NCBI GenBank assembly: GCA_017549145.1
Contig: JAFYVM010000007.1
Location: forward strand, 1 to 37,077
Source: Bacteroidales bacterium
GTDB lineage: Bacteria; Bacteroidota; Bacteroidia; Bacteroidales; UBA932
Reading direction: 5' to 3'
DNA: 37,077 nucleotides
Both the position numbers and the translations under genes were made by a program. Positions within the stretch are counted from its first letter, which is position 1. Every line of letters starts with the position of its first letter. Below, piece after piece: positions 7,401 through 23,237 of the stretch. Under the pieces are notes generated by a model that ran no database searches, had not been told where the DNA came from, and worked only from the letters and a program-made list of their open reading frames with translations.

Positions 7401-7665
7401 TGCAACAGTTAATGATAGATATCTTCAGAATATTGGCTACTGCCGTTTGAAGAATGTTACTGTAGGTTATACACTTCCTAAGAAGTGGACAGATGCCGTG
7501 AAGATGGAGTCTGTTCGCGTATACTTCTCAGGTGAGAACCTTGGTTACCTTGCTCCTGGCCTCCATAGTGAGTACATGGACCCAGAAATGGCTATGGTTG
7601 GTGGCAAGTGCCATATCTATCCTTGGCAGAAGACATTCATGTTCGGTGTTGATATTAACTTCTAA
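4426..7665 (+). CDS. SusC/RagA-family TonB-linked outer-membrane glycan transporter
   Basis: TonB-dependent beta-barrel that imports oligosaccharides together with its SusD lid. The 1079-aa protein has a signal peptide (1-25, ends NAFAQ-Q), a carboxypeptidase-regulatory-like beta-sandwich (about 27-100, VKGVVVDEAG...), and the SusC signature with the TonB box region (EEVVVVGYGTTKKENLTGAV, about 104-123). The plug follows, with LNIRGWNSINSGSPLVLVDG and SISVLKDASSAAVYG, and then the barrel, ending in an aromatic C-terminal beta strand (FMFGVDINF). No STN domain precedes the plug, so coupling to an anti-sigma factor is not indicated. It is the first PUL gene and sits 10 bp before susD. Confidence 0.95.
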   Translation: MKVQKFCQMLLTFACMLLSINAFAQQVKGVVVDEAGQPVTGAFVLQKGTSNGTVTNVDGQFNLDVPSDAVLEVSCLGYVTQEVAVAGKSLLNVVLAEDTELLEEVVVVGYGTTKKENLTGAVSVVSSDAISNRSRSNLGQILQGAVPGMTVTTSSGQPGEGVSLNIRGWNSINSGSPLVLVDGVVGSLDRVNPNDVESISVLKDASSAAVYGAQAAFGVVLVTTKSGNENDGRASINYSGRWGFTAPTTRTDWETRGYDAAYVTNLFMNAYQGQNQIKYGEDDMYQLYIRRDDVVENPERPWVMMDQSMGRNTYKYYANTDWWHYFFNDIKPTQSHDISFRGGTKRIKYYLSGNYSKEQGIYKQIPDIHNRYNLRARISFDATKWLNISNNAAYYSTTYTYPGATDPESTFYVLTAGYFPHITPITPDGNYFYKDDFGAGGQDYVAILNNENYKNRKRTNNFTNTTEVTIKPIKQLEIKANYTYSSNNYSSMHRHVNLTFADVIPGQTFTLTTGNGEDKLTEQVQTTDVHSVNAFATYTDTFKDAHNLKVMVGTNYETYYHKKLSVTGYDLLSQELNDMNLVSGNEEGVKRIESSGGQSAYALLGFFGRVNYDYKGKYLAEISGRYDGTSRFPKGQRFGIFPSFSLGWRISEEDFYTPVKDVMNDAKIRFSYGSLGNQQVGYYDYIRSVSLSTQSYLFGGGKSSTATYGAPVASSLTWETVNQMNLGLDLAFFNNKLTFSGEAYIRDTKNMLTTGKALPSVYGASAPKTNNADLRTKGYELMLTYKDQFMLLGKPFAYNVTATFNDFVGHITRFHNPENELTTYYEGMKYGEIWGYTTDGFFATDEEAKSYAVDQSPVNSIIYASTGENFGLRAGDLKYVDVDGDGVIGKGTNTLDNPGDRKVIGNSQPRYQYGATVGFNWAGLDFSLFIQGIGRQDWYPGADARYFWGLYARPFSSWIQKDFLERCWSEENPDAYFPRPRAYIAMKDGRALATVNDRYLQNIGYCRLKNVTVGYTLPKKWTDAVKMESVRVYFSGENLGYLAPGLHSEYMDPEMAMVGGKCHIYPWQKTFMFGVDINF

Positions 7666-7675: not shown

Positions 7676-9496
7676 ATGAAAGCCACAATAAAATATTTTG
7701 GTACTTTATTGACTGCTTCGCTGTTGTTCGCTTCATGTGAGGGATTCTTGGATAGATTCCCACAGGATAAACTCTCTCCTGAGACTTTCCTTGCGAACGA
7801 GACAGAGATGCAGACATATACAAACTCGTATTATACGATGTTCAAGGGCGCCGGTGACTTATATAATGAGTTCAGCGACGTCGTGATTGGAACAGATCTC
7901 AGCAAGGAATTGTGGGGTGGTCGTACAATCACTTCTGGTGAGGGTTCATGGTCATGGACTACTCTTCGTAAACTCAACACTTTCATTGAGTACTCTGGTA
8001 ACTGTAAGGATGAGGCAGTTCGTAATCAGTACATTGCTCTTACGCGTTTCTTCCGTGCATACTTCTATTTTGAGAAAGTGAAGGCATTTGGAGACGTTCC
8101 TTGGTATGACCATACCCTTGGTTCTGAAGATCCAGAGCTTAACAGACCACGAGATAACCGTGATTTCGTTATGCAGAGGATGATCGAGGATATCGATTAC
8201 GCTATCGAATGGCTCCCAGAGACTAAGTCTGATTACCGTGTGACAAAGTGGACTGCTCTTGCATTCAAGTCGCGTTTCTGCCTCTATGAGGGAACATTCC
8301 GTAAGTATCATGAGGGTAAAGAGACTCTAAAGACTCTTCCTGCTGATGCACAGCCTTATACATATTATCTTTCTCAGGCTGCTGATGCTGCTGATAAGTT
8401 CATGACTGGAAGCGGATATACACTTTACACTACTGGTGATCCTAACACAAGCTATCTTGAGCTTTTCAACAAACACAGTGTTACTGAGGGTCCTAACAAG
8501 GAGGTTATTCTTGCTAGAAACTATGATATCCAGTATGGTGTAGTTCATAGTGCAAATGCTTCTTATCAGAGTGCAACACTTGGACGTCCGGGTCTTACTC
8601 GTAAGCTTGTTGCAAGCTACCTTATGAAGGACGGTAGCCGCTTTACTGACAAGGCTGGTTGGGAGACCATGACATTCATGCAGGAGACTAAGGATCGTGA
8701 TCCGCGTCTTGCTCAGAGCATCAGAACTCCAGGTTATTGCAGAGTTGGTGAAACAACTCCAGTTGCTCCACTGCTTAACTATACTGTGACAGGTTATGCT
8801 CCTATCAAGTATTTGACAAGTGCTGCAGATGACACATATCAGACAGCATATGTTGACATGCCGATCTTCCGTGCTGCTGAGGTTTATTTGAACTATGCTG
8901 AGGCAAAGGCAGAGCTTGGTACTATCAATCAGGCAGATCTTGACCGTTCAATCAATCTTATCAGATCACGTGTTGGCATGCCAGCTCTTAATCTTGCTGC
9001 AGCAAATGCAGATCCAGACGAGTATCTTCTTCATAAGCACTATGGATATCCTCAGGTAGCTGTTAAGAATACTAATAACGTAGGTGTGATTCTTGAGATC
9101 CGTCGTGAGAGAACAATCGAGCTTCTCCAGGAGGGATTCCGTTACTACGACGTTATCCGCTGGGCTGAGGGTGCAACATTTGAGACTCCACTTCAGGGTA
9201 TGTATTTCCCTGGTGAGGGTACTTATGACCTCAACGAGGATGGAACTCCAGATGTTACTCTTTACCTTGGCGATTCTGCTCCAGCAGGTGCTGCAGCTCT
9301 TGCTTATAAGATCAATGATGGTCTCAAGCTCACTGAGGCAACTAAGGGTTGTGTCGAGTTCCATAGAGATACTCGTCCAGGTTGGAAATGGGATGAAGTT
9401 AAGGACTACTACTATCCGATCCCAGTAGGAGACAGAAACCTTACAGGTGGCGCTCTTACTCAGAACCCAGGTTGGAATGACGGTCTTTCTTTCTAA
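7676..9496 (+). CDS. SusD/RagB-family outer-membrane glycan-binding lipoprotein
   Basis: Surface lipoprotein that closes over the SusC pore and binds the glycan. The 606-aa protein has an SPII signal with cysteine at residue 21 (LFASC), then the SusD-typical GFLDRFPQDKLSPETF. The TPR-like helical core shows the family hallmarks ALTRFFRAYFYF, DVPWYDH, RAAEVYLNYAEAKAELG, and near the C-terminus REERTIEL-like text (RRERTIELLQEGFRYYDVIRWAEG). It ends with YYYPIP and LTQNPGW, the usual SusD terminus. Paired with susC in the order expected for a PUL. The glycan specificity cannot be read from the sequence. Confidence 0.95.
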   Translation: MKATIKYFGTLLTASLLFASCEGFLDRFPQDKLSPETFLANETEMQTYTNSYYTMFKGAGDLYNEFSDVVIGTDLSKELWGGRTITSGEGSWSWTTLRKLNTFIEYSGNCKDEAVRNQYIALTRFFRAYFYFEKVKAFGDVPWYDHTLGSEDPELNRPRDNRDFVMQRMIEDIDYAIEWLPETKSDYRVTKWTALAFKSRFCLYEGTFRKYHEGKETLKTLPADAQPYTYYLSQAADAADKFMTGSGYTLYTTGDPNTSYLELFNKHSVTEGPNKEVILARNYDIQYGVVHSANASYQSATLGRPGLTRKLVASYLMKDGSRFTDKAGWETMTFMQETKDRDPRLAQSIRTPGYCRVGETTPVAPLLNYTVTGYAPIKYLTSAADDTYQTAYVDMPIFRAAEVYLNYAEAKAELGTINQADLDRSINLIRSRVGMPALNLAAANADPDEYLLHKHYGYPQVAVKNTNNVGVILEIRRERTIELLQEGFRYYDVIRWAEGATFETPLQGMYFPGEGTYDLNEDGTPDVTLYLGDSAPAGAAALAYKINDGLKLTEATKGCVEFHRDTRPGWKWDEVKDYYYPIPVGDRNLTGGALTQNPGWNDGLSF

Positions 9497-9524: not shown

Positions 9525-11333
9525 ATGAAGAAAATTCTAAGTCTATTTATGATTCCTGTTATGGGTCTTCTCGCACTCTCGTGCGAGAAGCCTGGCCAGG
9601 AGGGCGGCGGAAACACAGGCGCTGCAGTTTTGGGAGTTTCAGTTACTGATCTTCCACAGGTAGTTGAGGTTCCACAGAACCAGTCTCAGTCTTTTGAGAT
9701 TCTCGTAGTTGCTAACCCAGGACCATCTGAGGCAATCCAGGTTACACTTGGTACTGATGAGTCACTCGTAGCCAAGTACAACGCTGCTAATGGTACAGCA
9801 TACGAAATGCTTCCATCAGCAGCATTCGAACTTCCATCTTCTGCACTTATGGTTATGAAGTACAATAAGACTTCAGTTCCTGGTACTCTTAAACTTATTG
9901 GTGCAGGTTGCGAGCAGGGTAAGACTTATGTCCTTCCTGTAGTTGTATCTTCAGTTAAAGGTAATGCAGCATATGAGGCTCCAGAGGATAGAGTTGCTTA
10001 TGTAGTATTCAAGATGCTTGCTGCTCAGATGGCAGGTTCTGGTACACAGGCTGACCCATATCTTGTAACTAATACAGAGGAGTTCAACAAGATCGGTAAC
10101 ATCCTTAAGAGTGGTGAGACTGTATATGTGAAGCTTGCTGCTGATATTGACTACAATGGTGCCGCATGGACACAGGCTGATGCAACTGGCGCTCCTGTTT
10201 ATCTCGATGGTGACAACCACGTTGTTAAGAATGTAAATGCTCTATCTGGTCTCTTCTTGAATCTTGAGGGTACTGTTAAGAACATCACTTTCGACGGTGT
10301 TAAAGTTGAGGCAGGTGCAGCTATCGCTGGTATTCTTGCTGACGCGGCAGGTTCATCAGAGAGTGCTGTCACTATTAGCAATGTAAAACTTACAAATGCT
10401 ACAATGAACAATGTAGGCCAGGCTGGTGGTCTCATCGGTAAGCTCACTAATAGTACTGTTGATAATGTGGAAGTAAATTGTACAGTTACTGGTACATCAC
10501 GTGTTGCTGGTGTAGTAGGTCACGCAGTTTCATCTACAATTACAAATACAACAGTTGCCGGTACAGTAACTGGTACTGACTATTATCTCGGTGGTCTTGT
10601 TGGACTTATGTATGATTGTACAGTAAAGAATTGTTCAGCTGCAGTAAACGTAACTTGTGAGAGCCTTGCTAACGCATATGCACGTATCGGTGGTTTGGTT
10701 GGTGAGATCTTCAAGGGTGGTCTTATCGAGAAGTGTCATGCAACAGGTACAATCATTGGTAAGGGATACTTCGGCGGTGGACTTGTTGGAGTTATTGATA
10801 CTGTTGAGGATGTTGATGGCGTCTCAACAGTTGGTACAGTAACAATCAAGCAGAGCTATGCTACTGGTAGCGTTTCTCTTATCAGAGACGGAAATGCTAA
10901 GGATGCTGGTGCTGGTGGACTCGTAGGTTGTCTTGAGAAGGGTAAGGCAGTTATCACTGACTGCTACGCAACAGGTGCTATCGAGGCTGACAGATATAGC
11001 GCAGGTTTCTTTGGTGACCTTTATGCAAGCACTGAGGTAACTATTACTAACGGCTTCACAAATGCTGACCTTACTAAGCTCGGACCAGATGCTAATGGTA
11101 ACCACTCTGATGGAGTTGCTATCGGTTCTCTTAGAGCTGATGATGTAAAGATTTCTATCAAGGGCTTTGTGGCTTGGAGTGACAATCCAAATAAGAAGTT
11201 TATCTACCAGGATAAGGTACCTGTTACTGGTAACTATCATGGTACTGAGGGCACTATCTCAGCACAGGCTAAAGCTCTCGGTTGGGATGAGTCAATCTGG
11301 GATCTTAGCGCAGATATTCCTAAGCTTAAGTAA
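9525..11333 (+). CDS. Surface lipoprotein with DUF1735-like N-terminus and GLUG beta-helix repeats
   Basis: Likely an outer-membrane surface glycan-binding or adhesin-like protein in the SusE/SGBP position. The 602-aa protein has a lipobox cysteine at residue 20 (LALSC). Residues about 36-155 resemble the DUF1735/BT_3987-type N-terminal domain (EVPQNQSQSFEILV, KYNAANGTAYEMLP, GKTYVLPVVVSS). From about residue 170 (GTQADPYLV) it becomes a repetitive right-handed beta-helix with GLUG-like motifs (GGLIGKL, GGLVGLM, GGLVGEI, GGGLVGV, GGLVGCL), each followed by a CxATG- or CSA-like rung. The last 40 residues (YHGTEGTISAQAKALGW...) are shared with the lipoprotein at 13918. No catalytic motif is seen. 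The role is inferred from position and domains. Confidence 0.8.
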   Translation: MKKILSLFMIPVMGLLALSCEKPGQEGGGNTGAAVLGVSVTDLPQVVEVPQNQSQSFEILVVANPGPSEAIQVTLGTDESLVAKYNAANGTAYEMLPSAAFELPSSALMVMKYNKTSVPGTLKLIGAGCEQGKTYVLPVVVSSVKGNAAYEAPEDRVAYVVFKMLAAQMAGSGTQADPYLVTNTEEFNKIGNILKSGETVYVKLAADIDYNGAAWTQADATGAPVYLDGDNHVVKNVNALSGLFLNLEGTVKNITFDGVKVEAGAAIAGILADAAGSSESAVTISNVKLTNATMNNVGQAGGLIGKLTNSTVDNVEVNCTVTGTSRVAGVVGHAVSSTITNTTVAGTVTGTDYYLGGLVGLMYDCTVKNCSAAVNVTCESLANAYARIGGLVGEIFKGGLIEKCHATGTIIGKGYFGGGLVGVIDTVEDVDGVSTVGTVTIKQSYATGSVSLIRDGNAKDAGAGGLVGCLEKGKAVITDCYATGAIEADRYSAGFFGDLYASTEVTITNGFTNADLTKLGPDANGNHSDGVAIGSLRADDVKISIKGFVAWSDNPNKKFIYQDKVPVTGNYHGTEGTISAQAKALGWDESIWDLSADIPKLK

Positions 11334-11352: not shown

Positions 11353-12606
11353 ATGAGAAAAGTATTATTACTTCTTTTATTACCTATACTTGCCATGGCT
11401 GCGGTATCATGTGAATCTGAGAGTGGTACTGGTTCCGACAATACGCCGGAACCGTACCTTCTTGGGTATACTACCGACTTTGCCGGTAACAAATGCGTTT
11501 CAGGCAAGCCCGTTAAAATTAACGGATTTGATATCAGCCCGGAAGTTTCTGAGAATCAGGTTCTATATGGTATTGGCTTTAACGCGACTTCGTTGCCTGT
11601 AACCGAGGCTTCTGATAAGCACGTTGTATTTATTGCACCACAGATTGAGGGAAAGGAACTCTATGTCAGATTATCATCAAGAGGTAAGGAGTCTAATCAG
11701 ATTCTTCTTCAGTTTGATAACTCATTGAATGTGGATTCAGATACTCCAGCTGAAGAAGAGAAGGAAGATGAGGTTGATCTTTCAGCGTTGCTTAATGCAT
11801 CGACTAAAACTGTTCTTCGCGATGGTATTGAGTGGATTCAGTTCCATGGAAAATGGGAGGGTCAGATTCGCAATATCAATATTGTAAAGACTACTCTTAA
11901 CGAGCACAATAAATTGGCAATGTACTACGACTGGGATGTCTATGCGACAATCACCCAGAAGTGTGAGTACTTGGATGCGATTGTTGGAACTAATGGTCCA
12001 ATGAAATGTTGTCACTATGTTCGTGTTGATGGTGTCCAGAAGCGTGGGGCAAATGAGCAGGATCCATGGATTACAAATGCTGCTGTGGTAATCGATGACG
12101 GCGTTCCAGATATCGTGGAGGTTAAGACCAACTATGATGGTGCAAGACTTCCGAATCAGAATGTAGGAGTCTGCGGACCGATGCTTGTCTTTAATGGTCA
12201 GATCTGTGAAGAGAAGCAGTCGTTCAAGGATGAAATACTACCTGTATGGAAGAAGCATGAGAACTGGAGCAGTGGTGCATTTATTTACAGTACTCACCCA
12301 CGTACGGCGTTCGGTATTTCTAAGGATCAGAAGACTGTGTATCAGGTAGCTGTTGATGGACGTTGGACAAGTTCAAACGTTGAGAAGAGAGCTATCGGAA
12401 TGCCAACTAAGACTCTTGCAAAACTTATGAGAGGTCTTGGTTGCTATAAGGCTGTTAACTTTGACGGAGGTGGTGGTACAGCAATGTGGATTTATCAAAA
12501 GGGAATCAATGGTATTGTAAACCATCCATGTGATGACCTTAACTGGGAGAACCCAACACTCCGCCCTTGCGGAACAGGTGTCTATATTAAAACAGATTTG
12601 AAATAA
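11353..12606 (+). CDS. IPT/TIG-domain lipoprotein with phosphodiester glycosidase domain (PF09992/NAGPA-like), copy 1
   Basis: Predicted surface enzyme hydrolysing a sugar-1-phosphodiester, by analogy with the mammalian uncovering enzyme NAGPA (DUF2233 fold). The 417-aa protein has a lipobox cysteine at residue 20 (AVSC), and an immunoglobulin-like IPT/TIG domain at about 33-118 (GKPVKINGFDISPEVSENQV). The catalytic domain spans about 150-417 with family hallmarks: VGVCGPMLVFNG, HPRTAFGISKDQKTVYQVAVDGR, KAVNFDGGGGTAMW (N369, D371, glycines 372-375) and GIVNHPCDD, then GTGVYI at the end. It is 9 bp upstream of its paralogue. The domain family is clear; the exact bond and sugar are not. The neighbouring phosphatase fusion and hexosaminidase support a phosphoglycan substrate. 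Confidence 0.85.
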   Translation: MRKVLLLLLLPILAMAAVSCESESGTGSDNTPEPYLLGYTTDFAGNKCVSGKPVKINGFDISPEVSENQVLYGIGFNATSLPVTEASDKHVVFIAPQIEGKELYVRLSSRGKESNQILLQFDNSLNVDSDTPAEEEKEDEVDLSALLNASTKTVLRDGIEWIQFHGKWEGQIRNINIVKTTLNEHNKLAMYYDWDVYATITQKCEYLDAIVGTNGPMKCCHYVRVDGVQKRGANEQDPWITNAAVVIDDGVPDIVEVKTNYDGARLPNQNVGVCGPMLVFNGQICEEKQSFKDEILPVWKKHENWSSGAFIYSTHPRTAFGISKDQKTVYQVAVDGRWTSSNVEKRAIGMPTKTLAKLMRGLGCYKAVNFDGGGGTAMWIYQKGINGIVNHPCDDLNWENPTLRPCGTGVYIKTDLK

Positions 12607-12615
12607 TAAGACAAT

Positions 12616-13848
12616 ATGAAAAAAGTATTACTACATCTTTTGTCTGCTTTGATCTTCTTTACATCATGTGATGTCTCTAAGAATTCCAATAACGGTCTGG
12701 AGCCATATATCTCAGAGATTTCAACAGATTATGGAACAGGTGCAGTACCTGGAAGGCCTGTAACTATAAAGGGCGTAAACTTCAGTTCAGTAATTTCTGA
12801 AAATGAGGTTTACATTGGTATTGGCCTAGCTGCTAAACATCCTGTGATTACTGCAGCGACTGAGACAAAAATAGAGTTTATTCTTCCTGAGGATTTTGTA
12901 GATGGACAGTACAAGTTGAGTGTCATGACCAACGGCAAAAATTCAAATCTTGTCGATTTGGTAGTAGATATTTCTTTGGACCCTGATCTTCAGGATACGA
13001 TTAAAGATAAAGTTGATATCAGCGAATTGTTGAACGCAGCTACCGTAGTAAAACTTTGTGAAGGTGTTGAGTGGATTAGCTTCCATGGCAATTGGGAAGG
13101 CCAGGTTCGCAATATCAATATTGTAAAGACTACTCTCAATGAGCACAACAAGCTTGGTCTCTATCACGATTACACAGAATACCGTACAATCACTCAGAAG
13201 TGTGAGTATCTTGACGCTTTGGTAGGTACAAACGGCCCTATGCAGTGCTGTCATTATGTGCGCGTTGATGGTGTACAGAAACGTGCTGCAAATGAGCAGG
13301 ATCCATGGATTACAAATGCTGCTGTAGTAATTGATAACGGCGTTCCTGATATCGTAGAGGTTAAGACCAACTATGATGCTGCCGCAAGACTGAAGAATCA
13401 GAACGTAGGTGTCTGCGGACCAATGCTTGTTTATGATGGAAAGATCGTAGAGGAAATGAATTCTTTCAAGAATGACGTGCTTCCTGTTTGGCAGAAACAC
13501 GCAAACTGGGAGAGCGGAAAGTTTATCTACACAACTCATCCACGTACTGCATTCGGTATTTCTGAGGATCAGAAGACAGTTTATCAGGTTGCAGTTGATG
13601 GCCGTTGGGTATCTGGTACTATTGACAAAAGAGCTATCGGAATGCCTACTAAGCTACTTGCTAAATTGATGTTAGGCCTAGGTTGCCATAAGGCTGTAAA
13701 CTTCGACGGCGGTGGTGGTACTGCCATGTGGATTTACAGACAGGGTAACAATGGTATCGTAAATCATCCATGTGACGACTTGAATTGGGATAACCCAACT
13801 CTCCGTGCTTGTGGAACAGGTGTCTATATTAAGACAGATTTGAAATAA
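12616..13848 (+). CDS. IPT/TIG-domain lipoprotein with phosphodiester glycosidase domain (PF09992/NAGPA-like), copy 2
   Basis: Tandem paralogue of the preceding gene, 410 aa, with the same architecture: lipobox cysteine at residue 18 (FFTSC), IPT/TIG domain at about 30-115 (GRPVTIKGVNFSSVISENEV), and PF09992 domain (VGVCGPMLVYDG, THPRTAFGIS, KAVNFDGGGGTAMW, GIVNHPCDD). From about residue 145 onward the two proteins are by eye roughly four-fifths identical, while the N-terminal third is clearly more diverged, which suggests duplication with different targeting or binding specificities and conserved catalysis. The last codons (GVYIKTDLK) are identical. It is followed directly by a terminator-like hairpin, so it ends the first transcription block of the PUL. 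Confidence 0.85.
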   Translation: MKKVLLHLLSALIFFTSCDVSKNSNNGLEPYISEISTDYGTGAVPGRPVTIKGVNFSSVISENEVYIGIGLAAKHPVITAATETKIEFILPEDFVDGQYKLSVMTNGKNSNLVDLVVDISLDPDLQDTIKDKVDISELLNAATVVKLCEGVEWISFHGNWEGQVRNINIVKTTLNEHNKLGLYHDYTEYRTITQKCEYLDALVGTNGPMQCCHYVRVDGVQKRAANEQDPWITNAAVVIDNGVPDIVEVKTNYDAAARLKNQNVGVCGPMLVYDGKIVEEMNSFKNDVLPVWQKHANWESGKFIYTTHPRTAFGISEDQKTVYQVAVDGRWVSGTIDKRAIGMPTKLLAKLMLGLGCHKAVNFDGGGGTAMWIYRQGNNGIVNHPCDDLNWDNPTLRACGTGVYIKTDLK

Positions 13849-13857
13849 TAACCGTTT

Positions 13858-13896
13858 AGGAAGACTAGCTGGGCTAATTGTCTGGTTAGTCTTCCT
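13858..13896 (+). terminator. Terminator-like hairpin after second phosphodiester glycosidase
   Basis: AGGAAGACTA at 13858-13867 pairs perfectly with TAGTCTTCCT at 13887-13896. The stem extends to 13 bp with G-U pairs, around a loop of about 13 nt. It is followed by a T-rich tail (ATTGTATTTT). Partial termination here would lower expression of the downstream genes. Confidence 0.7.
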
Positions 13897-13917
13897 ATTG
13901 TATTTTAATAACACTGT

Positions 13918-15600
13918 ATGAAAAAGACTTTTAAATTCATGCTTGCGGTTGCTGCCGCTTGCGCAGTGGTTCTCTCTTGTGAAAAGCCTGAGACACCACA
14001 GGATGATCCAAAGGATCCTACTCAGGAACAGCCTGAGACTCCTGGTGAGGAGGAAGAAGAACCAGCACCAGAGCCAACACTTGAAGTTAGTTTGACAGAA
14101 CTTGCTTTTGAGGCAGCAGCTGGCGAGGCTACATTCACTGTAACTACAAATCAGGACTGGACAGCGGCAACAGAGGCTGCTTGGATTACTTTGGATCCAG
14201 CTAGTGGCGCTGCTTCTACAGAGGCTGCGACTGTAAAGGTTACAGCAGCTGAGAATACAGTAACAGAGGCACGTACTGCTACTGTAACAGTTACTGCGGG
14301 TGAGCTTACAAAGACTATTTCTGTGACTCAGGCTGCTGCTATTCCACAGCCAGACGGAACAGAGGCTAATCCATACCTCGTATCTGATGCAGCTACACTT
14401 AAGGGAATGAGTGATCTTCTTGTTGCAAATGCTACAACTTACTTCAAGCTGACAGCTAACATCGATCTTGCTAGCGCTGAGTGGACTCCGATTTCTACAA
14501 CAGAGACAGTTGATGAGACTACTGTTGTAAAGGCTATCGCTCTTGACGGTTGCAACTATACAATCAGCAATGCTAAGGATGCTCTCTTCTCTACACTTTG
14601 CGGTAGCGTTCAGAACCTTACAATTGACGGAGCTGCAATCAATGCTAGTAACACAGTCGGTGTGGTTGCAAACCAGGTGAAGGATGCAACTATCAAGGAC
14701 GTTGAGGTCAAGAATTCGTCTATTGTTTCTTCTGCTGGCGAGGCAGGTGGAGCTGTAGGAAAGGTTTCAAACGGAACACTTGAGAATGTAAAGGTAGCTT
14801 GTAATGTAAGCGGTACTCAGCAGCTTGGTGTACTCGTCGGACGCTTCGAGGATGGTAAGATTAAGAACTGTACAGTAACAGGAGAGATTACAGGTGCGAA
14901 TTATTATATTGGAGGTCTTGCAGGTTTGATGATTGGCGGCTCAGTAGAGGGTTGCTCAGCTGATGTAAATGCTACAACAGCTTCAACAGCTTATGGCCGT
15001 ATCGGTTGTTTCATCGGACAGGTTGAAGGTGGTTCAATCTCAACTAGCCATGCTGCAGGTTCTGTGACTTCAGGGGGACACTACGGTGGTGCATTCATCG
15101 GTGTTCTTGCAAAGAACGTAGGAGTTAATATAAGCAAGTGCTATGCTACAGGAACTGTAAATCTTCCTGCGGGTGTAAACAAGTCAGGTGGAGCTGGTTT
15201 CATCGGTGCTGTAGAGAATGATGGTACATTCGTTATTTCAGACTGCTACACAACAGCGACTGTAACTGCTTACAGATGGAGTTCTGCTTTCCTTGGAAGA
15301 ATGCTAAACAACTGTAAGGTCACTCTTACAAACTGCTATACAAAGGCTAACTGTACATTCACTCAGCCAGCTAACTGCGGCGCTCTTGTAGGTGATGTGG
15401 CTACTACTGCAACTCTTACATACAGCGGCTGCGTTGCATGGAATGTAAATGCTCTTACTCTCTTTGTGCGCCCAGGCGTTGAGACCGCTCCAGAAGGAAA
15501 CTACTTCGGAACAGAGGGTACAATCTCTGAGAAGGCTAAAGCATTAGGATGGAATACTACAATCTGGGATCTTAGCAAAGACGATCCTACTTTGAAATAG
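13918..15600 (+). CDS. Surface lipoprotein with BACON domain and GLUG beta-helix repeats
   Basis: Likely surface glycan- or mucin-binding protein, a paralogue of the lipoprotein at 9525 over its C-terminal two thirds. The 560-aa protein has a lipobox cysteine at residue 21 (VVLSC) followed by a long acidic Pro/Glu linker (about 22-55), as expected for a surface-exposed lipoprotein. A BACON domain follows (about 57-140; LAFEAAAGEATFTVTTNQDW, WITLDPASGAAS, TVTVTAG, TISVTQAA). From about 145 (DGTEANPYLVSDAATLKG) the beta-helix begins, with GLUG-like turns (GGAVGKV, GGLAGLM, GCFIGQV, GGAFIGV, GAGFIGAV). The tail (YFGTEGTISEKAKALGW...) matches that of its paralogue. No catalytic signature is visible. 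It is bracketed by two terminator-like hairpins, so it may be its own expression unit. Confidence 0.8.
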   Translation: MKKTFKFMLAVAAACAVVLSCEKPETPQDDPKDPTQEQPETPGEEEEEPAPEPTLEVSLTELAFEAAAGEATFTVTTNQDWTAATEAAWITLDPASGAASTEAATVKVTAAENTVTEARTATVTVTAGELTKTISVTQAAAIPQPDGTEANPYLVSDAATLKGMSDLLVANATTYFKLTANIDLASAEWTPISTTETVDETTVVKAIALDGCNYTISNAKDALFSTLCGSVQNLTIDGAAINASNTVGVVANQVKDATIKDVEVKNSSIVSSAGEAGGAVGKVSNGTLENVKVACNVSGTQQLGVLVGRFEDGKIKNCTVTGEITGANYYIGGLAGLMIGGSVEGCSADVNATTASTAYGRIGCFIGQVEGGSISTSHAAGSVTSGGHYGGAFIGVLAKNVGVNISKCYATGTVNLPAGVNKSGGAGFIGAVENDGTFVISDCYTTATVTAYRWSSAFLGRMLNNCKVTLTNCYTKANCTFTQPANCGALVGDVATTATLTYSGCVAWNVNALTLFVRPGVETAPEGNYFGTEGTISEKAKALGWNTTIWDLSKDDPTLK

Positions 15601-15625
15601 TCTGACTATTGTCAAAAGGTTTATG

Positions 15626-15668
15626 AATTCTCCTCAAAGATGGCTATCTTTGGGGAGAATTTTTATTT
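15626..15668 (+). terminator. Rho-independent terminator before GH2 gene
   Basis: AATTCTCCTCAAAGAT (15626-15641) pairs with ATCTTTGGGGAGAATT (15646-15661) with one G-U, around a GGCT loop, and is followed by TTTATTT. An in-frame ATG at 15640 lies inside this hairpin and is therefore unlikely to be the GH2 start. Confidence 0.82.
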
Positions 15669-15684
15669 GCTAATGACTCACTGT

Positions 15685-18600
15685 ATGAATAAGATTTTGC
15701 GCTTGCTATACGTATGCTCAGCACTAGTCGTGATGGCGATGCAGCCGTTTGAGGCGACAGCAAAGAATGATAAAACACGCGGGATTGGTATTTATCCTGG
15801 CAATCCTGCCGAGTATTACGGTCCGCAGGTAGTAGCTGGAGGATCAGAGTATAGAAACGTGGCTCTTTTCAGAGCAGCAAGTCAGTCGTCTGCATTTGAC
15901 TTCAACCGCACAGCACAGCTCGTGACAGATGGCCTTGTAGCCTCTGCAAGCGAGGCAGCAGGCGAGGGCTTTGTGAGCTCTTGGAAGAGTGCAACAGGTA
16001 AGGATGAGTGGATCGCGGTGGACCTTGGTAGTGTATCTAAGATTGACAAGGTGACCTTCGAGTGGATCAATCCTCCTGTATCAGGTAAGCTTCAGGTGTC
16101 TATGGATGACAAGAACTGGAGCGATGTAGCTACTTTTGGTGCTGATGCTGAGATTTCTTTTCCTGTAGCTGAGTGTCGCTATGTGCGTGCAGTGCTTGAG
16201 CACACAGCTGATGAGGCTCCATTTGAGCTGAGCGAGTGGCAGATCTTCGGTAGGGGTGGTACAAAGACAATTCCAGCTAAGGCTGCAAAACGTGAAGGTA
16301 ATATACAGCAACTTGCAGGTGGAAACTGGAAACTCTGCCGTGCTACTGAGGTGAAGGCAACGGGTGAGGAACTCTCTCGTCCTTATGATGCCAGTGCGTG
16401 GATGGATGCTACCGTTCCAGGTACCGTGCTCGCAAGCTACGTGAACGCCGGTGCAGTTCATCATCCTAACTATAAGGAGAATGAGTTCTTTATCTCTGAT
16501 GACTATTTCTATCAGGACTTCTGGTATCGCAATACCTTTGATGCAAAGGTTAATTCAGAGCGTCAGTTCCTTCACTTTAGAGGTGTGAACCTGAAGGCTG
16601 AAGTATACCTTAATGGTCAGTATGTGGGCACTCTCGTGGGTGCATTCCGTGAGAAGGACTTCGACGTTACAGGTGTTCTTAAGAACGGACGCAATGATCT
16701 TGCTGTTAAGATTATTCGCAATAATAATTATGGCCGCGTAAAGGACTACGATGGCTTTAATCCTCGTCAGAATGGTGGCGATATCGGTGCTGACAATCCA
16801 ACAATGCATGCTACGACAGGATGGGACTGGATCCCTGCAGTTCGTGGACGTAATATCGGTATCTACGATGAGATGTTCATCAAGTACACAGGTGAGGTGA
16901 CCGTAGAGAATCCTTTCGTGCGTACAACCCTCCCATTGCCTGATACAACTAAGGCGACTCTCTTTGCTGAGGCAACATTGGTGAACCACTCTGATAAGCC
17001 TATGACAGGCGTTTTGAAGGGTAGTTTTGGTGAGTGGACCTTTGAGAAGGAGGAAACATTGGCTCCCGGTGAGACAAAGGTCGTAAAGTTTGATCCTCTT
17101 TCATTGAATAACCCTAAACTTTGGTGGCCTAAAGGATATGGGGATCCTCATCTTTACGATGTGACATTTGCATTCGAGACCGGTAAAAATGTGTCTGACT
17201 CGCGCTCATTCAAGGCCGGTGTACGCGAGGTGACATATAATCTGTACGAATATACACCAGTCTCACGCATGTACTTCAAAAGAGGACGCAACAATAATCA
17301 TCGCTTAGACTTCTATATCAATGGACGTCGATTCAATGGATTTGGCGGTAACTGGGGCTTCCCAGAGCATCTGCTCAACTACCGTGAGCGCGAATATGAT
17401 ATTGCTGTAGGCTATCATGCTGCGCAGAACTTCAATCTTATCCGTAACTGGGTTGGTATGACAGGCAGCCGCTTCTTCTATGAGGCTTGTGACCGTCATG
17501 GAGTGATGGTATGGCAGGACTTCTGGTTGGCTAATCCATATGATGGTCCTAACCCTACAGATCCAGACCGTTTCAATGCTACAGCCCAGGAGTATGTACG
17601 TCTTATCCGTAACCATCCAAGCATTCTGATCTATGTGGGACGAAACGAGGGTTATCCACCTGAGGAGATTGATAACTACCTTGCTAAGATGGTCCCAGAG
17701 GAGCATCCTGGACACTTCTACAGCTCACATTCCGGTGCTGACGGACTAAGTGGTGGCGGACCTTACAAAATGTTTAAAGTGTCTCACTTCTTCGACAATT
17801 TGTTCGGTGCTGATAAAATTCATAGTGAGCGTGGTATTCCTTCTATCATGAACTACGAGAATCTCGTGCGTACAATGGATGAGGAGAATGTGAACCCAGT
17901 GAATACCGTAGAGCATCCTAATAAGATGTACGGTGCGCATGACTTTAACTTGGGAGGAGCAGAGCGCTGGTGTGCACAGTATACACGCACATTCAATGAA
18001 CTATATGAAAAGGGCTTTGGGGCTCAGCCAGAGGATGCTCGTGAGTTTACAGAACTCTCACGTTGGTTGTGCTATGATGGCTACAGAGCAATCTTCGAGT
18101 CTCGTGCTGAGCATCGTCAGGGTATGCAGTTGTGGCTTAGCCATCCTACATGGCCTTCGCTCATCTGGCAGACTTACGACTATTACTTTGAACCTTTGGC
18201 ATCCTTCTTTGCGTGTAAGAAGGCATGTGAGCCTCTTCACGTTTTCTTTAATCCTGTACATAATAAAGTGGAGGTGGTGAACTATAGCGCCGGAAATCAG
18301 ACCGGACTTAAAGTTGTGACAAAGGTGCTTGATCTCACAGGCAAAGAGATGTGGAGCAATGCTAGCAATCTCGATATCAAGGAGGATGCTACTATACAGA
18401 TCGTTGCTCCTGAGGTGCCGGAGAATATCACAGATGTATACTTCCTGCGTTTGTTTATCTATTCTGCAGACGGAGAAATCCTCTCTGAGAACATTTACTG
18501 GCAGGGCAAGGAGGAAGGTAACTTCCAGGCAGTGCTCAATGCAGCAAAGGCTGATGTAGAGATGACTGTGGAGGGTATGAATGGCAGCTATACAGCCACT

Positions 18601-18807
18601 CTCACCAATAAGAGCGATGTCCCGGCCATGATGATTCGCGTGAAGGCGGTAGACAGCAAGACTGGTGACCTTATCCTTCCTGTATGGTATTCTGATAACT
18701 ACTTCTTCATCATGGGAGGAGAGAGCAAAACTATTAATATCAACGTTCGTGATGAGGATTGCAAGGGCAAGCCTGTTATCGAATTTGAGTGCTTTAATTG
18801 CCAATAA
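15685..18807 (+). CDS. Glycoside hydrolase family 2 enzyme with F5/8C-like domain (beta-mannosidase / exo-beta-glucosaminidase type)
   Basis: Secreted exo-acting GH2 glycosidase. The 1040-aa protein starts at ATG 15685 with a signal peptide (MNKILRLLYVCSALVV..., cleavage near EATAK). An F5/8 type C (discoidin)-like module follows at about 45-185. The GH2 sugar-binding jelly roll comes next (WKLCRA..., DASAWMDATVPGTVLASYV, YWYRNTF-like, FRGVNLKAEVYLNG), then the Ig-like domain and the TIM barrel (GGNWGFPE, NLIRNWVGMTGSRFFYEACD). The candidate acid/base is E655 in GRNEGYPP and the candidate nucleophile E715 in HSERGIPS. The C-terminal Ig domain ends in LPVWYSDNYFFIMGGE, as in exo-beta-glucosaminidase and mannosylglycoprotein-type GH2 enzymes. 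The exact specificity is unresolved. It sits 12 bp before the GH20 gene in a tight three-gene hydrolase block. Confidence 0.88.
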   Translation: MNKILRLLYVCSALVVMAMQPFEATAKNDKTRGIGIYPGNPAEYYGPQVVAGGSEYRNVALFRAASQSSAFDFNRTAQLVTDGLVASASEAAGEGFVSSWKSATGKDEWIAVDLGSVSKIDKVTFEWINPPVSGKLQVSMDDKNWSDVATFGADAEISFPVAECRYVRAVLEHTADEAPFELSEWQIFGRGGTKTIPAKAAKREGNIQQLAGGNWKLCRATEVKATGEELSRPYDASAWMDATVPGTVLASYVNAGAVHHPNYKENEFFISDDYFYQDFWYRNTFDAKVNSERQFLHFRGVNLKAEVYLNGQYVGTLVGAFREKDFDVTGVLKNGRNDLAVKIIRNNNYGRVKDYDGFNPRQNGGDIGADNPTMHATTGWDWIPAVRGRNIGIYDEMFIKYTGEVTVENPFVRTTLPLPDTTKATLFAEATLVNHSDKPMTGVLKGSFGEWTFEKEETLAPGETKVVKFDPLSLNNPKLWWPKGYGDPHLYDVTFAFETGKNVSDSRSFKAGVREVTYNLYEYTPVSRMYFKRGRNNNHRLDFYINGRRFNGFGGNWGFPEHLLNYREREYDIAVGYHAAQNFNLIRNWVGMTGSRFFYEACDRHGVMVWQDFWLANPYDGPNPTDPDRFNATAQEYVRLIRNHPSILIYVGRNEGYPPEEIDNYLAKMVPEEHPGHFYSSHSGADGLSGGGPYKMFKVSHFFDNLFGADKIHSERGIPSIMNYENLVRTMDEENVNPVNTVEHPNKMYGAHDFNLGGAERWCAQYTRTFNELYEKGFGAQPEDAREFTELSRWLCYDGYRAIFESRAEHRQGMQLWLSHPTWPSLIWQTYDYYFEPLASFFACKKACEPLHVFFNPVHNKVEVVNYSAGNQTGLKVVTKVLDLTGKEMWSNASNLDIKEDATIQIVAPEVPENITDVYFLRLFIYSADGEILSENIYWQGKEEGNFQAVLNAAKADVEMTVEGMNGSYTATLTNKSDVPAMMIRVKAVDSKTGDLILPVWYSDNYFFIMGGESKTININVRDEDCKGKPVIEFECFNCQ

Positions 18808-18819
18808 TTAACTATTGAA

Positions 18820-21150
18820 ATGAAATATTTAAGACTTCTAGTGGCGGCCATGGTTATGGCTATGACAGTAGCGAATGCTGCTGCAAAATCAAAAATTACA
18901 GTTGTTCCATATCCTAATGAAGTGACTGTTGGGAATGGCTCATTTGACGCACAGGGTGCAAGTGTGACATATGATGCAGTCTTGGATGAGGCTACAGTCA
19001 ATGTTATCAAGGCTTTTGCTGAAAAGTTATCATTTGTCAGTGGAACTCAGAATGCAGTTTCTGCAGGAAAGTCTGATGAGGGATTCGTGTTTGTGTATAA
19101 TGCATCGCTTTCTTCAGAGGCTTATACTTTGGAGGTTACTCCTAAGGCGGTTCGCGTAGAAGCTTCAGCACTTCGTGGTTTTAACTACGCTGTTCAGACG
19201 CTTAAACAGTTGCTCCCGTTAGGTATTTTCTCAAACGAGGCTTCTCCAAAGACAAAGTGGACAATTCCGGTGGTAAAGATCAGCGATGAACCTCGTTTCG
19301 GTTATCGTGGAATGCACCTGGATGTAAGCCGCCATTTCTTCAGCGTTGAGGAAGTGAAGAGATATCTTGACATCATGGAGGTGCATAAGCTCAATAAACT
19401 TCATTGGCATCTCACTGATGACCAAGGATGGAGACTTGAAATCAAAAAGTATCCTAAGCTTACTGAGATAGGTGCCCTTAGAAAGGGAACCTGCATCAAG
19501 AAGGAGTGGGATAATCTTGATGGTATACCTTATGGTGAGGGTATGTGGTACTCACAGGATCAGGTTCGTGAGATTGTAGCATACGCGGCAGCTAAGGGTA
19601 TTGATGTCATACCTGAGATTGATCTTCCTGGCCATATGTTGGGAGTGCTTTCTGCTTATCCTGAGTTTGGCTGTACAGGTGGCCCATATGAGGTTTGGAC
19701 TCGTTGGGGCGTGTCTCCGGATGTCCTCTGTGCAGGAAATGAGAAGATGTACGAGTTCTTGGAGGATGTTCTCTCAGAGGTGTGCGAGTTGTTCCCATAC
19801 GAATATATCCACATCGGCGGTGACGAGTGTCCTAAGACAAGCTGGGAGAAATGCCCTAAGTGTCAGGCTAAGATCCAGGAACTTGGATTGACAGATAAGG
19901 ATGGAGAGAAGGCTGAGCACTTCCTTCAGAGTTATGTGATTACTCGTGTCGAGAAGTTCATCAACAGCAAGGGCCGTAAGATCATCGGTTGGGATGAGAC
20001 TCTCGAGGGAGGTATCGCACCTAATGCCACTATCATGTCTTGGCATGGAGACAAGCCGGGCTGGAAAGCAGCTGAGATGGGACACGATGCAATCATGACT
20101 CCTAACTATTGTATGTACTTTGATAAGTATCAGTCGACAGATGAGTCAAAGGAGCCGTTCGGTATCGGAGGCTATGTTCCTGTTGAGAAGGTCTATGCTT
20201 ACGAACCATGCAAGGATGGAATGTCTGAGAAGGAGAAGGCCCATATCCTTGGAGTTCAGGCAAATATGTGGACAGAGTATATTGCTTCTGCTGATCATCT
20301 TTATTATATGCTTCTTCCTCGTCTGGCGGCCCTTTCTGAGGTGCAGTGGTGCAAGGAGGGACATAAGGATTGGGAGCGTTTCTATGCAGCTTGTGACCAC
20401 TATTGTGAGCTTTACAAGACTATGGGATATAACTACGCTCAGCATATTCTTCAGGCTAGAGGAACAGTGACTGTTGATTCTGCTAATAAGTGTGCAAGAG
20501 TGGAACTTGTGGCTCAGGGTGGTGTTCCTGTAAGATATACTCTCGATGGAACAGCTCCTACAAAATCGTCTAAGAAGTATAAGAAACCTCTGGTTCTGAC
20601 TGAGTCTTTTGCGCTCAGAGCAGTAGCATTCAGAGATGATGCAGAGTCTAGAGAGTTTACCGGTAAGTATGTTTCGCATAAGGCTCTAGGTGGTGAGTTG
20701 ACATATTCTTTGCCTCCTCACCGTAGATATCGTTATGGCCTTCCAACATGTTTGACAGACGGTCTTAGAGGTACTGAATCTTTCAGGTCTGAGTCTTGGG
20801 CAGCATGGAGAGGTGCTCCAGTTGATCTTGTTGTGGATATGAAGGCTGAGGAAAAGATCAGCAGTGTTGCCGTTGGCTCATTCAGAAATCAGCTTGATAA
20901 TATTTTCTTGCCAGAGAGACTTGTTGTTGCTGTTTCGACTGATGGTGTAAACTACACAGAGGTTGCATCTCAGAAGTACGAGGTTGAGCAGGAAGCTCCG
21001 AATTGCCTAGTTGATATAACTTTGACATTCCCGGAGACAACTGCCAGATATGTGAAGGTGACAGTGACTCCACTTGCGAAGATGCCGGATTGGCGCCAGC
21101 AGGACGGAAACTCTGCTTATGCATTTGTTGATGAAATCATAGTTAAATAG
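18820..21150 (+). CDS. Beta-N-acetylhexosaminidase, GH20
   Basis: Removes terminal beta-linked GlcNAc or GalNAc by substrate-assisted catalysis. The 776-aa protein has a signal peptide (1-22, ends VANAAAK), a GH20b alpha/beta domain (about 25-150), and the GH20 barrel: FGYRGMHLDVSRHFFS, LHWHLTDDQGWRLEI, PEIDLPGHMLG, then the catalytic pair D335-E336 in HIGGDECPK, and IIGWDETLEGG. C-terminal parts include a chitobiase-like beta domain (VRYTLDGTAPTKSSKKY) and an F5/8C-like module (about 640-776, ending YAFVDEIIVK). It overlaps no neighbour but is only 2 bp from the downstream phosphatase fusion, which indicates co-translation. In this PUL it would trim hexosamine from the phosphoglycan. Confidence 0.94.
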   Translation: MKYLRLLVAAMVMAMTVANAAAKSKITVVPYPNEVTVGNGSFDAQGASVTYDAVLDEATVNVIKAFAEKLSFVSGTQNAVSAGKSDEGFVFVYNASLSSEAYTLEVTPKAVRVEASALRGFNYAVQTLKQLLPLGIFSNEASPKTKWTIPVVKISDEPRFGYRGMHLDVSRHFFSVEEVKRYLDIMEVHKLNKLHWHLTDDQGWRLEIKKYPKLTEIGALRKGTCIKKEWDNLDGIPYGEGMWYSQDQVREIVAYAAAKGIDVIPEIDLPGHMLGVLSAYPEFGCTGGPYEVWTRWGVSPDVLCAGNEKMYEFLEDVLSEVCELFPYEYIHIGGDECPKTSWEKCPKCQAKIQELGLTDKDGEKAEHFLQSYVITRVEKFINSKGRKIIGWDETLEGGIAPNATIMSWHGDKPGWKAAEMGHDAIMTPNYCMYFDKYQSTDESKEPFGIGGYVPVEKVYAYEPCKDGMSEKEKAHILGVQANMWTEYIASADHLYYMLLPRLAALSEVQWCKEGHKDWERFYAACDHYCELYKTMGYNYAQHILQARGTVTVDSANKCARVELVAQGGVPVRYTLDGTAPTKSSKKYKKPLVLTESFALRAVAFRDDAESREFTGKYVSHKALGGELTYSLPPHRRYRYGLPTCLTDGLRGTESFRSESWAAWRGAPVDLVVDMKAEEKISSVAVGSFRNQLDNIFLPERLVVAVSTDGVNYTEVASQKYEVEQEAPNCLVDITLTFPETTARYVKVTVTPLAKMPDWRQQDGNSAYAFVDEIIVK

Positions 21151-21152
21151 TT

Positions 21153-23237
21153 ATGAAGAGACTAGTATTATCTGTTCTGTCTGTTGTTTGCTTTGTTGGA
21201 GCTGGCTTTGCTCAAACCACAGCAGATATTATAAAGCAAGATCCGAATAAGGCTGCTTGTTCGTTCTATGTGTATGATTATAAGAACGCATCGGAGGTAA
21301 CTCCAGCACCAGAGGGATATAAGCCGTTCTACATCAGTCAGTTTGCAAGGCATGGTGCACGTTATTGTACTAGTGAGTATGGCAGACTCTTCGAGTGGTT
21401 TTCTAAGGCTGAGCAGGCAGGTGTGCTTACAAAGGAGGGAAAGAAATTCTTTGCTCGTTACAAGCCTTTTTACCATAAGGTGAAGAATTGTAGCGGTAAT
21501 CTGACAGGAGTTGGTAGAGCTCAGCATAGAGCTATCGCTGAGCATATGTATCAGCGTTTCCCTGAGGTGTTTGATGGCCCTACACATCTTGAGGCTGTTT
21601 CTACAGAGTCGCCTCGCGTGATTATGAGTATGTGGTCATGCCTGTCACAGTTGGCAGCTCTTGATACAGACCTTGATATTGATGCTGACGCTTCTGCTAA
21701 GTATGCTTCGTGGCTTCAGCCTGGTCTTCCATCGAATCCTTACTATACTAAAGAGAGATTCAAAGCCAGTGATAAGGCTCATAAGGAAGTCTTGGATTAC
21801 TTCGTGAAGGAGGTTCCTTGCGATGAGATTGCTGAGAAGTTCTTTACAAGTTCAGATGTTCTGGAGACTGTACTTAAGATAACTCCAGATAAATTCATTG
21901 GTGCTATTCATGGAGTTGTGACAGGTTCCCAGTGTCTTGACGAAGATCAGTACTACTTTGATGGATTGTTTACAGAAGAACAGCTGTACCAGATGTGGAA
22001 AGGACAGTCTGCTAGATATTTCCTGGATGTAGCGAATTACGTAGAATCAGGACATAATGTGTTGGATTATGCGCGCTTTACACTTGAGCAGATAATAGAG
22101 TCTGCTGAAGCAGATATGGCTTCTGGCAAGACTCAGTTGAGACTTCGTTATGGACATGACTCAGGTATCGCTCCACTGATTTCTGTCTTGAATTTGAACG
22201 GCTATGGCGAACCAACATCTTCTTTTGAGGAGGGTTTGCAGGTGTTCCCTAGCTACTGTGTGCCAATGGGTGCTTCTGTGCAGTTGGTTTTCTTTAAGAA
22301 TGATGCCAATGATGTACTTGTGAAGGTACTTCTGAACGAGAAAGAAGCCACACTTCCTTTCGAGGCTGCATATGAGTCTTACTATAGATGGGCAGATTTC
22401 AAGGCTTATTATCTTCCATTCATTTCTTCTTCAAAGCAAAAGATTGCCTTTGCTGCTTTGAACTCCGCTGATTGGGGTTGGCGTCCTGTTAATGGTTCTA
22501 AGGTTGAGAGCGGTTCTGCTAGTGTAAATGTTTTTGGAGCGATGCAGACAATATCTGTGGTGCGTTTCCCAATGGCAGAGCATACGCTTTCTGTTTATGA
22601 ATCAGATGGTCCTGCAGCTGCAGTAACTAGCAGCTTGGGAGAGGCAAGTGGTGCTCTTGCTGCGATTAACGCAAGTTTCTTCGATAAGAAAAAGATCCCG
22701 ACAGAATATGTAAAGGATAATGGTAAGGTGGTTTGTACTCGTCCTGCAAATGGCGCGTCCCGTTCTAACGGAATGTTGAGAATCAAGGATAAGAAAGGTA
22801 AATCCATTGATATCCTGACAGTAGTCGATTCTATGAGCACAGTGAAGGCTGCCAGGGGATGGTATGAAGCAATCGTGTCTGGTCCAGTGTTGATAGAGGA
22901 TGGCAAACGTGTGGATTATTCTAATGACACGAAGAGAATTTCTGGTACTTTCCATACACGACGTCATCCACGTACCCTCATGGGCTATACTAAAGATGGA
23001 TGGGTTTATTTTATCGTAGTTGATGGACGTTTCCCTGGACAGGGTGAGGGTATGACCATATCGGACCTTCAGACACTATGCCAGTATTTTGGATTATATG
23101 AAGCAATGAATTTTGATGGCGGTGGTTCCTCAACTCTTTGGACTAAGGAGTATGGTGTAATAAACCACCCATATGACAATCGCACCTTCGACCACAAAGG
23201 CGAGCGCAGAGTCCCCAATGCCTTAATTGTGAAATAG
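21153..23237 (+). CDS. Histidine acid phosphatase fused to phosphodiester glycosidase (PF09992)
   Basis: Bifunctional secreted enzyme by domain content. The 694-aa protein has a signal peptide (1-20, GAGFAQ). Residues about 45-430 form a branch-2 histidine phosphatase (phytase/MINPP-like): RHGAR with nucleophile H67 between R66 and R70, and the distal HD pair H335-D336 in YGHDSG. Residues about 455-694 form a PF09992 domain: NASFFD (N506), VSGPVLIEDG, HPRTLMGYTKDGWVYFIVVDGR, AMNFDGGGSSTLW (N653, D655) and GVINHPYDN. The two halves would carry out consecutive steps, uncovering a phosphodiester and then hydrolysing the phosphomonoester. No frameshift or stop separates them, and the signal peptide serves both. 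It closes the PUL and is followed by terminator hairpins. Substrate and order of action are inferred. Confidence 0.87.
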   Translation: MKRLVLSVLSVVCFVGAGFAQTTADIIKQDPNKAACSFYVYDYKNASEVTPAPEGYKPFYISQFARHGARYCTSEYGRLFEWFSKAEQAGVLTKEGKKFFARYKPFYHKVKNCSGNLTGVGRAQHRAIAEHMYQRFPEVFDGPTHLEAVSTESPRVIMSMWSCLSQLAALDTDLDIDADASAKYASWLQPGLPSNPYYTKERFKASDKAHKEVLDYFVKEVPCDEIAEKFFTSSDVLETVLKITPDKFIGAIHGVVTGSQCLDEDQYYFDGLFTEEQLYQMWKGQSARYFLDVANYVESGHNVLDYARFTLEQIIESAEADMASGKTQLRLRYGHDSGIAPLISVLNLNGYGEPTSSFEEGLQVFPSYCVPMGASVQLVFFKNDANDVLVKVLLNEKEATLPFEAAYESYYRWADFKAYYLPFISSSKQKIAFAALNSADWGWRPVNGSKVESGSASVNVFGAMQTISVVRFPMAEHTLSVYESDGPAAAVTSSLGEASGALAAINASFFDKKKIPTEYVKDNGKVVCTRPANGASRSNGMLRIKDKKGKSIDILTVVDSMSTVKAARGWYEAIVSGPVLIEDGKRVDYSNDTKRISGTFHTRRHPRTLMGYTKDGWVYFIVVDGRFPGQGEGMTISDLQTLCQYFGLYEAMNFDGGGSSTLWTKEYGVINHPYDNRTFDHKGERRVPNALIVK

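Follow-up and report, generated by a model that had tools for sequence, protein, structure and literature searches.

A SusCD-type locus that combines PF09992 phosphodiester glycosidase-type proteins with a histidine phosphatase fusion in a Bacteroidales bacterium

The locus and its putative enzymes

The window analysed here is the stretch from position 1 to 37,077 of contig JAFYVM010000007.1 (assembly GCA_017549145.1, a Bacteroidales bacterium of the UBA932 lineage). It carries an operon-like run of nine co-directional genes at 4426-23237, in which a SusC/SusD pair stands together with three proteins of the phosphodiester glycosidase family PF09992, one of them fused to a histidine phosphatase (Table 1). 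The intergenic gaps are 2-69 bp (in gene order from SusC to the fusion 10, 28, 19, 9, 69, 39, 12 and 2 bp). An earlier note on this DNA had named two tandem PF09992 lipoproteins, a third PF09992 domain fused to a histidine phosphatase, enzymes of glycoside hydrolase families 20 and 2 (GH20, GH2) and a SusC/D pair, and all of these lie where it placed them. The interval that it gave, 11353-23237, is nevertheless too short, since the first GLUG lipoprotein (9525-11333) and, before it, SusD and SusC fall outside it.

Table 1. Genes of the operon-like run in the window, with the profile matches and patterns on which their descriptions rest
Feature	Coordinates	Strand	Matches and patterns
SusC-type TonB-dependent transporter	4426..7665	+	TIGR04056 E 1.5e-271; Plug, CarbopepD_reg_2, barrel
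SusD-type lipoprotein	7676..9496	+	PF07980 E 2.8e-45; lipobox pattern FASC
Lipoprotein with BT_3987-like N-terminal domain (DUF1735) and GLUG repeats	9525..11333	+	PF08522 1.1e-14, PF07581 1.8e-16; lipobox pattern
PF09992 phosphodiester glycosidase-type lipoprotein 1	11353..12606	+	PF09992 5e-23; HPRT, DGR, NFDGGG motifs; lipobox pattern
PF09992 phosphodiester glycosidase-type lipoprotein 2 with TIG domain	12616..13848	+	PF09992 2.6e-21, TIG 1e-6; lipobox pattern
BACON and GLUG lipoprotein	13918..15600	+	PF19190 6.5e-14, PF07581 2.4e-8; lipobox pattern
GH2 glycosidase with F5/8 type C domain	15640..18807	+	PF18368 1.5e-22, PF22666 5e-27
GH20 beta-hexosaminidase-type enzyme	18820..21150	+	PF00728 2.9e-116
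Histidine phosphatase/PF09992 fusion, 694 aa	21153..23237	+	PF00328 1.9e-14, PF09992 1.4e-37

The run resembles a polysaccharide utilization locus (PUL) of Bacteroidota, in that a SusC/SusD pair, lipoproteins predicted for the cell surface and glycosidases predicted for the periplasm, here the carbohydrate-active enzymes GH2 and GH20, belong to a single run of genes. It differs from a PUL in that its constant enzymes, as the orthologous loci below indicate, are phosphodiester glycosidase-type proteins and a phosphatase, while the glycosidases vary among those loci. It also differs in that no dedicated regulator was recognised beside the operon among the 20 window proteins scanned with Pfam, although a regulator is not an obligatory feature of a PUL.

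The earlier note proposed surface lipoproteins and a periplasmic fusion. This division fits the lipobox patterns, which are found in SusD, both GLUG proteins and both PF09992 lipoproteins and are absent from GH2, GH20 and the fusion. The lipobox here is a pattern match alone: it missed one of the four orthologous PF09992 lipoproteins checked (in genome G839), and it also matched residue 8 of two orthologous fusions, which is too close to the start. The fusion of the window, without such a pattern, is probably periplasmic. Judged from sequence, the DUF1735-GLUG and the BACON-GLUG lipoproteins are both probable surface binding proteins.

In the fusion, His_Phos_2 matches residues 65-395 and PF09992 residues 500-693, and we place the limits of the two domains at about 20-431 and 432-694. 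The first half has the motifs RHGAR and GHD, the second HPRT, DGR and NFDGGGSS. The Pfam match and the RHGxR and HD motifs assign the phosphatase half to branch 2 of the histidine phosphatases. All three PF09992 proteins of the window exceed the Pfam cut-off of 25 bits (77-130 bits). An alignment of 14 PF09992 proteins has 15 invariant columns and 5 nearly invariant ones, with N, HPR, DGR, NxDGGG, PxD and R among them, and the invariant positions are present in all three.

One could argue that the phosphatase acts on inositol phosphates or on unrelated monoesters, and that the PF09992 proteins do something else, such as binding. The fused phosphatase is indeed related to multiple inositol polyphosphate phosphatases (4FDT, 6.5e-27) and, to our knowledge, few PF09992 proteins have been assayed so far. 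Its closest relatives are not these enzymes, however: the nearest solved structure is 7R5Y, a 'histidine acid phosphatase' (8.2e-62), far nearer than 4FDT. The retention of the invariant positions in all three PF09992 proteins likewise speaks against a different function, and in our opinion this explanation is improbable.

The PF09992 proteins of the window match the bacterial DUF2233 protein 3OHG, and they share the Pfam family and the conserved motifs with it and with the human uncovering enzyme NAGPA. The match to NAGPA itself (6PKU) is weak (E 0.007) and limited to the fusion and, unlike NAGPA, the proteins described here are bacterial, predicted to be exported and encoded in a SusCD locus, with one of them fused to a phosphatase. 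Lipoproteins 1 and 2 are tandem paralogues, 65% identical by blastp and sisters in the tree (support 100/100). Genomes G471 and G582 have a single PF09992 lipoprotein where the window has the pair.

Two glycosidases complete the run. GH2 is nearest to the exo-beta-D-glucosaminidase CsxA (2VZO, 9.5e-48), ahead of beta-mannosidases (1.3e-35 and weaker), and it has Glu at the two positions aligned to those that we take to be catalytic in 2VZO; no NCBIfam equivalog reached its cut-off. The nearest solved structure for GH20 is 6Q63 (1e-221), presumably BT0459, an N-glycan enzyme of B. thetaiotaomicron. Action of BT0459 on N-acetylglucosamine of N-glycans is mentioned in PMC9522356.

Conservation and repeated origin of the fusion

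Among the matches listed, orthologues of the fusion occur in 14 of the 300 genomes sampled from the genus (its own and 13 others), and so we reject the view that it is a one-off or an assembly error. The other 13 fusions show at least 57% identity across both domains and 55-65% identity per domain; as listed, the matches in G727 and G696 begin at residues 110 and 139. No other match covering both domains was found in samples of 393 genomes from the order and 395 from the phylum, with the best two candidates scored per genome (the best three in the search of the genus).

Over the 14 orthologues the mean majority fraction is 0.764 and 0.775 for the two domains and 0.668 for the linker. Residues R66, H67, G68, R70, H335 and D336 of the phosphatase half are invariant in the orthologues present, as are N506, H605, P606, R607, D624, G625, R626, N653, D655 and G656-G658 of the PF09992 half. 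Since the domains are equally conserved and their motif residues do not vary, both halves of the fusion are probably functional.

At least 25 further rows of the genus search span both domains with only 29-34% identity, and we refer to these as divergent fusions. A tree of PF09992 domains separates the window type (4 rows) from the divergent type (7 rows). A single clade of fusions is rejected with p-AU 1.5e-8 in this tree, from which two short domains were dropped, in which near-identical ones were collapsed and which comes with a warning of long branches that meet. It is likewise rejected by the tree of phosphatase domains (p-AU 0.004), which leaves out phosphatase matches of 300 residues or less. 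These approximately unbiased (AU) tests took 4 of the 14 window-type fusions and 7 divergent ones; a group of 665-aa fusions (G803:C85, G801, G795 and others) is absent from both trees. A single ancestral fusion is thus rejected on both domains, and we infer that phosphatase/PF09992 fusions originated at least twice.

Joining of PF09992 to phosphatases takes still other forms. At L149:13428-15617, in genome G839, a second fusion stands beside the orthologous one with the order of the domains reversed, the histidine phosphatase following PF09992. Its phosphatase half is under the Pfam cut-off, yet blastp matches it to that of the window, and the motifs RHGSR and GHD are retained. A protein from another genus of the family (L084:1322-3661) combines PF09992 with a PQQ propeller as well as a calcineurin-like phosphatase; seven more proteins of similar layout share its clade (support 86/79), the Pfam scan having been done for L084 only. 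Calcineurin-NAGPA fusions, the relatives of ShfP, have been reported (PMC11188070). They are alike in that a PF09992 domain is joined to a phosphatase of another superfamily, and unlike in the phosphatase fold and in that the accessible part of that report describes them as cell-surface proteins and does not place them in SusCD loci.

Because PF09992 has been joined to phosphatases of two folds, and more than once, consecutive reactions, in which the glycosyl-phosphate bond is cut and the phosphate then removed, seem to us the best explanation. This supports the chemistry that the earlier note proposed, a phosphodiester step followed by a phosphomonoester step, as do the retained motifs and the equal conservation of the two halves. 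As a separate observation, histidine phosphatases are themselves combined with a calcineurin-like phosphoesterase or with a 5'-nucleotidase C-terminal domain in single proteins (L120:6796-9738, L121:719-3583, L125:8551-10599).

PF09992 is also found fused to a glycosidase, which bears on the nature of the substrate. At L119:6995-10015 (G516) a GH92 alpha-mannosidase-family domain is fused to a PF09992 domain, and the neighbouring genes encode a BACON protein and a SusC-like barrel. This PF09992 domain lies in a 100/99 clade with the fused PF09992 domain of the window. Full-length matches to this protein were found in 7 of 151 genomes of the genus among the matches listed (G516, G804, G700, G715, G802, G599 and G669). 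It may be proposed, then, that the target is a eukaryotic mannose glycan, either phosphomannosylated N-glycans or fungal phosphomannan. Three observations point in the same direction: the gene adjoining the fusion in G792 encodes two GH92 domains, a GH92 gene lies about 3 kb from a PF09992 gene on contig C19 of the source genome, and the solved structure nearest to GH20 is presumably an N-glycan enzyme. A mannose link is seen only in relatives and at C19.

PULs for N-glycans or yeast mannan have GH92 together with GH18, GH76, GH125 or GH130. None of these five families has a match in the 20 window proteins scanned, and the earlier note was right about the absence of GH92, GH18 and GH130. Further, 133 of the 151 genomes match the GH92-PF09992 query by one part or another (among the matches listed), and since GH92 is so common in the genus, its nearness can be due to chance. 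GH2 is closer to an exo-glucosaminidase than to beta-mannosidases, and the locus in G827 has GH106 and GH3 instead. We consider it rather unlikely that the locus acts on these eukaryotic mannose glycans.

Surroundings of the fusion and of other PF09992 genes

All 14 orthologous loci were read. Gene calls in the relatives come from our own open reading frame pickers, and some genes were misplaced at high G+C. Neighbours were labelled by blastp matches to the window and to Pfam-annotated proteins, and unlabelled genes were only partly scanned with Pfam. Some stretches ended at contig ends, and 'none recognised' does not equal none.

In nine of the 14 loci (the window, G471, G582, G792, G803, G839, G746, G710 and G827) the fusion is accompanied by SusC, SusD, a DUF1735-GLUG protein and another PF09992 protein. 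The earlier note held that homologous loci consistently without the phosphodiester glycosidase and phosphatase modules would speak against its proposal, and in these nine the opposite is seen. In G734, GLUG and PF09992 proteins continue up to the contig end, and in G727 a 3.7-kb contig holds the fusion and a GH2 (58%). A FecR-like gene lies by SusC in G792, G803 and G827 according to its blast label, and an ECF (extracytoplasmic function) sigma factor was confirmed by Pfam in G792.

The glycosidases are far less constant. GH2 and GH20 are found together in the window, GH2 in G727, two GH92 domains within one protein in G792, and GH106 and GH3 in G827. In the other ten loci none was recognised, their unlabelled neighbours being mostly not scanned with Pfam. 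In the stretches fetched, GH20 is thus present at one and GH2 at two of the 14 loci, and we had to abandon the fixed trimming by GH20 and GH2 that the earlier note envisaged. Elsewhere, an unfused orthologue of the phosphatase in G823 neighbours a GH2 of 63% identity, and another adjoins a GLUG-GH20 protein in G911. A 1645-aa frame in G792 that unites a RhaT transporter, GH92 and GH28 (L146:1195-6132) may be an assembly or gene-calling artefact.

The source genome (G000; 2.35 Mb, 78 contigs, 83% complete) has 16 PF09992 hits and 22 SusD loci (23 hits, two of them within one frame). Twelve of the 16 PF09992 genes lie within 10 kb of SusD, or 13 if the fusion of the window, which belongs to the same gene run, is counted. 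By clusters, six of nine are near SusD, where the regions within this distance make up about 17% of the genome (P 0.0013, with a test picked after inspection of the data). The accompanying genes differ: GH20 at C66; a GDSL esterase and beta-helix proteins at C56; a GDSL esterase and an S1/P1 nuclease, besides the GH92, at C19; GH97, GH3 and a calcineurin phosphatase at C77; an Exo_endo_phos protein at C52. Like the window, the C77 locus (C77:12000-31500, L015) is a SusCD locus rich in PF09992; it holds three PF09992 genes along with three GLUG-type proteins, the GH3, a GH97 that NCBIfam calls a retaining alpha-galactosidase, and a purple-acid-type phosphatase. The same genome encodes a xylose-isomerase-like TIM barrel (PF01261) fused to PF09992 (L014:455-2197, contig C70). 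It also has a SusCD locus with calcineurin and histidine phosphatases and a PF01261 protein in which there is no PF09992 gene (C18:30001-50000, L170).

On the 5' side of the run, an epimerase/dehydratase-family gene, galE-like by our reading, ends 36 bp before SusC, and the end of the window falls within a 23S rRNA gene. A promoter scan 3' of the operon found none. Two copies of one 14-base hairpin lie there (23462-23475 and 23540-23553), with one scored terminator on each strand.

Proposed function and significance

We favour, with a probability of roughly 60%, the reading that the window carries a polysaccharide-utilization-type operon for a glycan with sugar-1-phosphodiester links. SusD and the GLUG lipoproteins would bind this glycan, and the two PF09992 lipoproteins would cleave glycosyl-1-phosphate bonds at the cell surface, leaving phosphomonoesters. 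Fragments would be taken up by SusC. Within the periplasm, the remaining glycosyl-phosphodiesters would be cut by the PF09992 half of the fusion and the histidine phosphatase half would strip the exposed phosphate, by which GH20 and GH2 would gain access to neutral sugars. Cleavage of glycosyl-phosphodiesters and dephosphorylation are probably the constant chemistry of this SusCD locus, and its glycosidases are probably exchangeable.

Several observations weigh against this proposal. Both lipoproteins cover just positions 22/33-168 of the PF09992 profile. In G594 there is one GLUG-PF09992 protein and SusCD is absent from the stretches read, while in G754 and G696 the fusion occurs without SusC, SusD, DUF1735-GLUG and a second PF09992 gene. 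Ten loci of divergent fusions were fetched (L112-L118, L162-L164). SusCD, or GLUG and a second PF09992 gene, were found at five of them (L112, L113, L116, L117, L162), and at the other five neither SusCD nor a second PF09992 gene was recognised. Three 665-aa fusions (L159-L161) likewise stand outside recognisable SusCD/PF09992 loci. With half of the divergent fusions and these three outside it, the fusion does not depend on a SusCD context everywhere. GH20 and GH2 could be passengers at the locus. Finally, phosphoesterases (PF00328, PF00149, PF03372) lie within 10 kb at two of the six PF09992-bearing SusD loci of the source genome versus 8 of the 16 other SusD loci (Fisher p 0.65). Counting the fusion of the window, which is 12.8 kb from SusD, gives three of six, and phosphoesterases in general are rejected as a mark of PF09992 loci in this genome.

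A different purpose, phosphorus scavenging, may be suggested by the PUS loci of Flavobacterium, in which SusCD is paired with phosphodiesterases and phosphomonoesterases and which are induced by phosphate depletion (PMC8115612). The locus would then import organic phosphorus and free the phosphate, with the glycosidases as accessories. Here too a SusCD complex stands beside constant enzymes of a diester and a monoester type, the diester activity being predicted from family membership, and five orthologous loci have no recognised glycosidase (G471, G582, G839, G746, G710). However, the putative diester enzyme comes from a glycosidase-type family, unlike the phosphodiesterases described for PUS. 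The locus further differs by its PF09992 and GLUG proteins. Several loci add GH2, GH20, GH92, GH106 or GH3, and the window has no recognised regulator or transporter for phosphate. We find scavenging of phosphorus doubtful, and we retain the degradation of a phosphodiester-linked glycan.

Phosphate-bridged glycans occur in fungal mannan and in many capsules and cell-wall polymers of bacteria. Given a constant phosphodiester/phosphatase core and differing glycosidases, the locus probably acts on a microbial glycan with phosphate bridges whose other sugars vary, rather than on one fixed eukaryotic glycan, although we regard this as the weakest step of our argument. That the glycosidases change around a constant core suggests targets united by the phosphate bridge and different in the remainder of the glycan. 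Mannose glycans (in view of GH92) and bacterial phosphoglycans (in view of GH106 and the variety of glycosidases) are both options. If the enzymes are active on mannose glycans, they might find use in the production of mannose-6-phosphate glycoproteins.

SusCD loci, PF09992 and histidine phosphatases are each known. Neither a SusCD locus centred on PF09992 enzymes and a histidine phosphatase nor phosphodiester glycosidase together with polysaccharide utilization was found in the searches made of open-licence PubMed Central papers, among which PF09992 occurs in one bioinformatics paper on associations of enzyme domains.

In bacteria that feed on glycans, enzymes able to cleave the bond between sugar and phosphate have hardly been described, and the recurrent fusion of a putative bridge-cutting enzyme with a phosphatase provides both a compact enzyme and a genomic marker for such loci. 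We tentatively suggest, at somewhat less than even odds, that these loci form a distinct SusCD class, so far in one genus of Bacteroidota. In such a class a PF09992 lipoprotein and a periplasmic fusion that uncovers and dephosphorylates, and that has arisen several times, would be combined with interchangeable glycosidases for the use of diverse phosphate-bridged microbial glycans.

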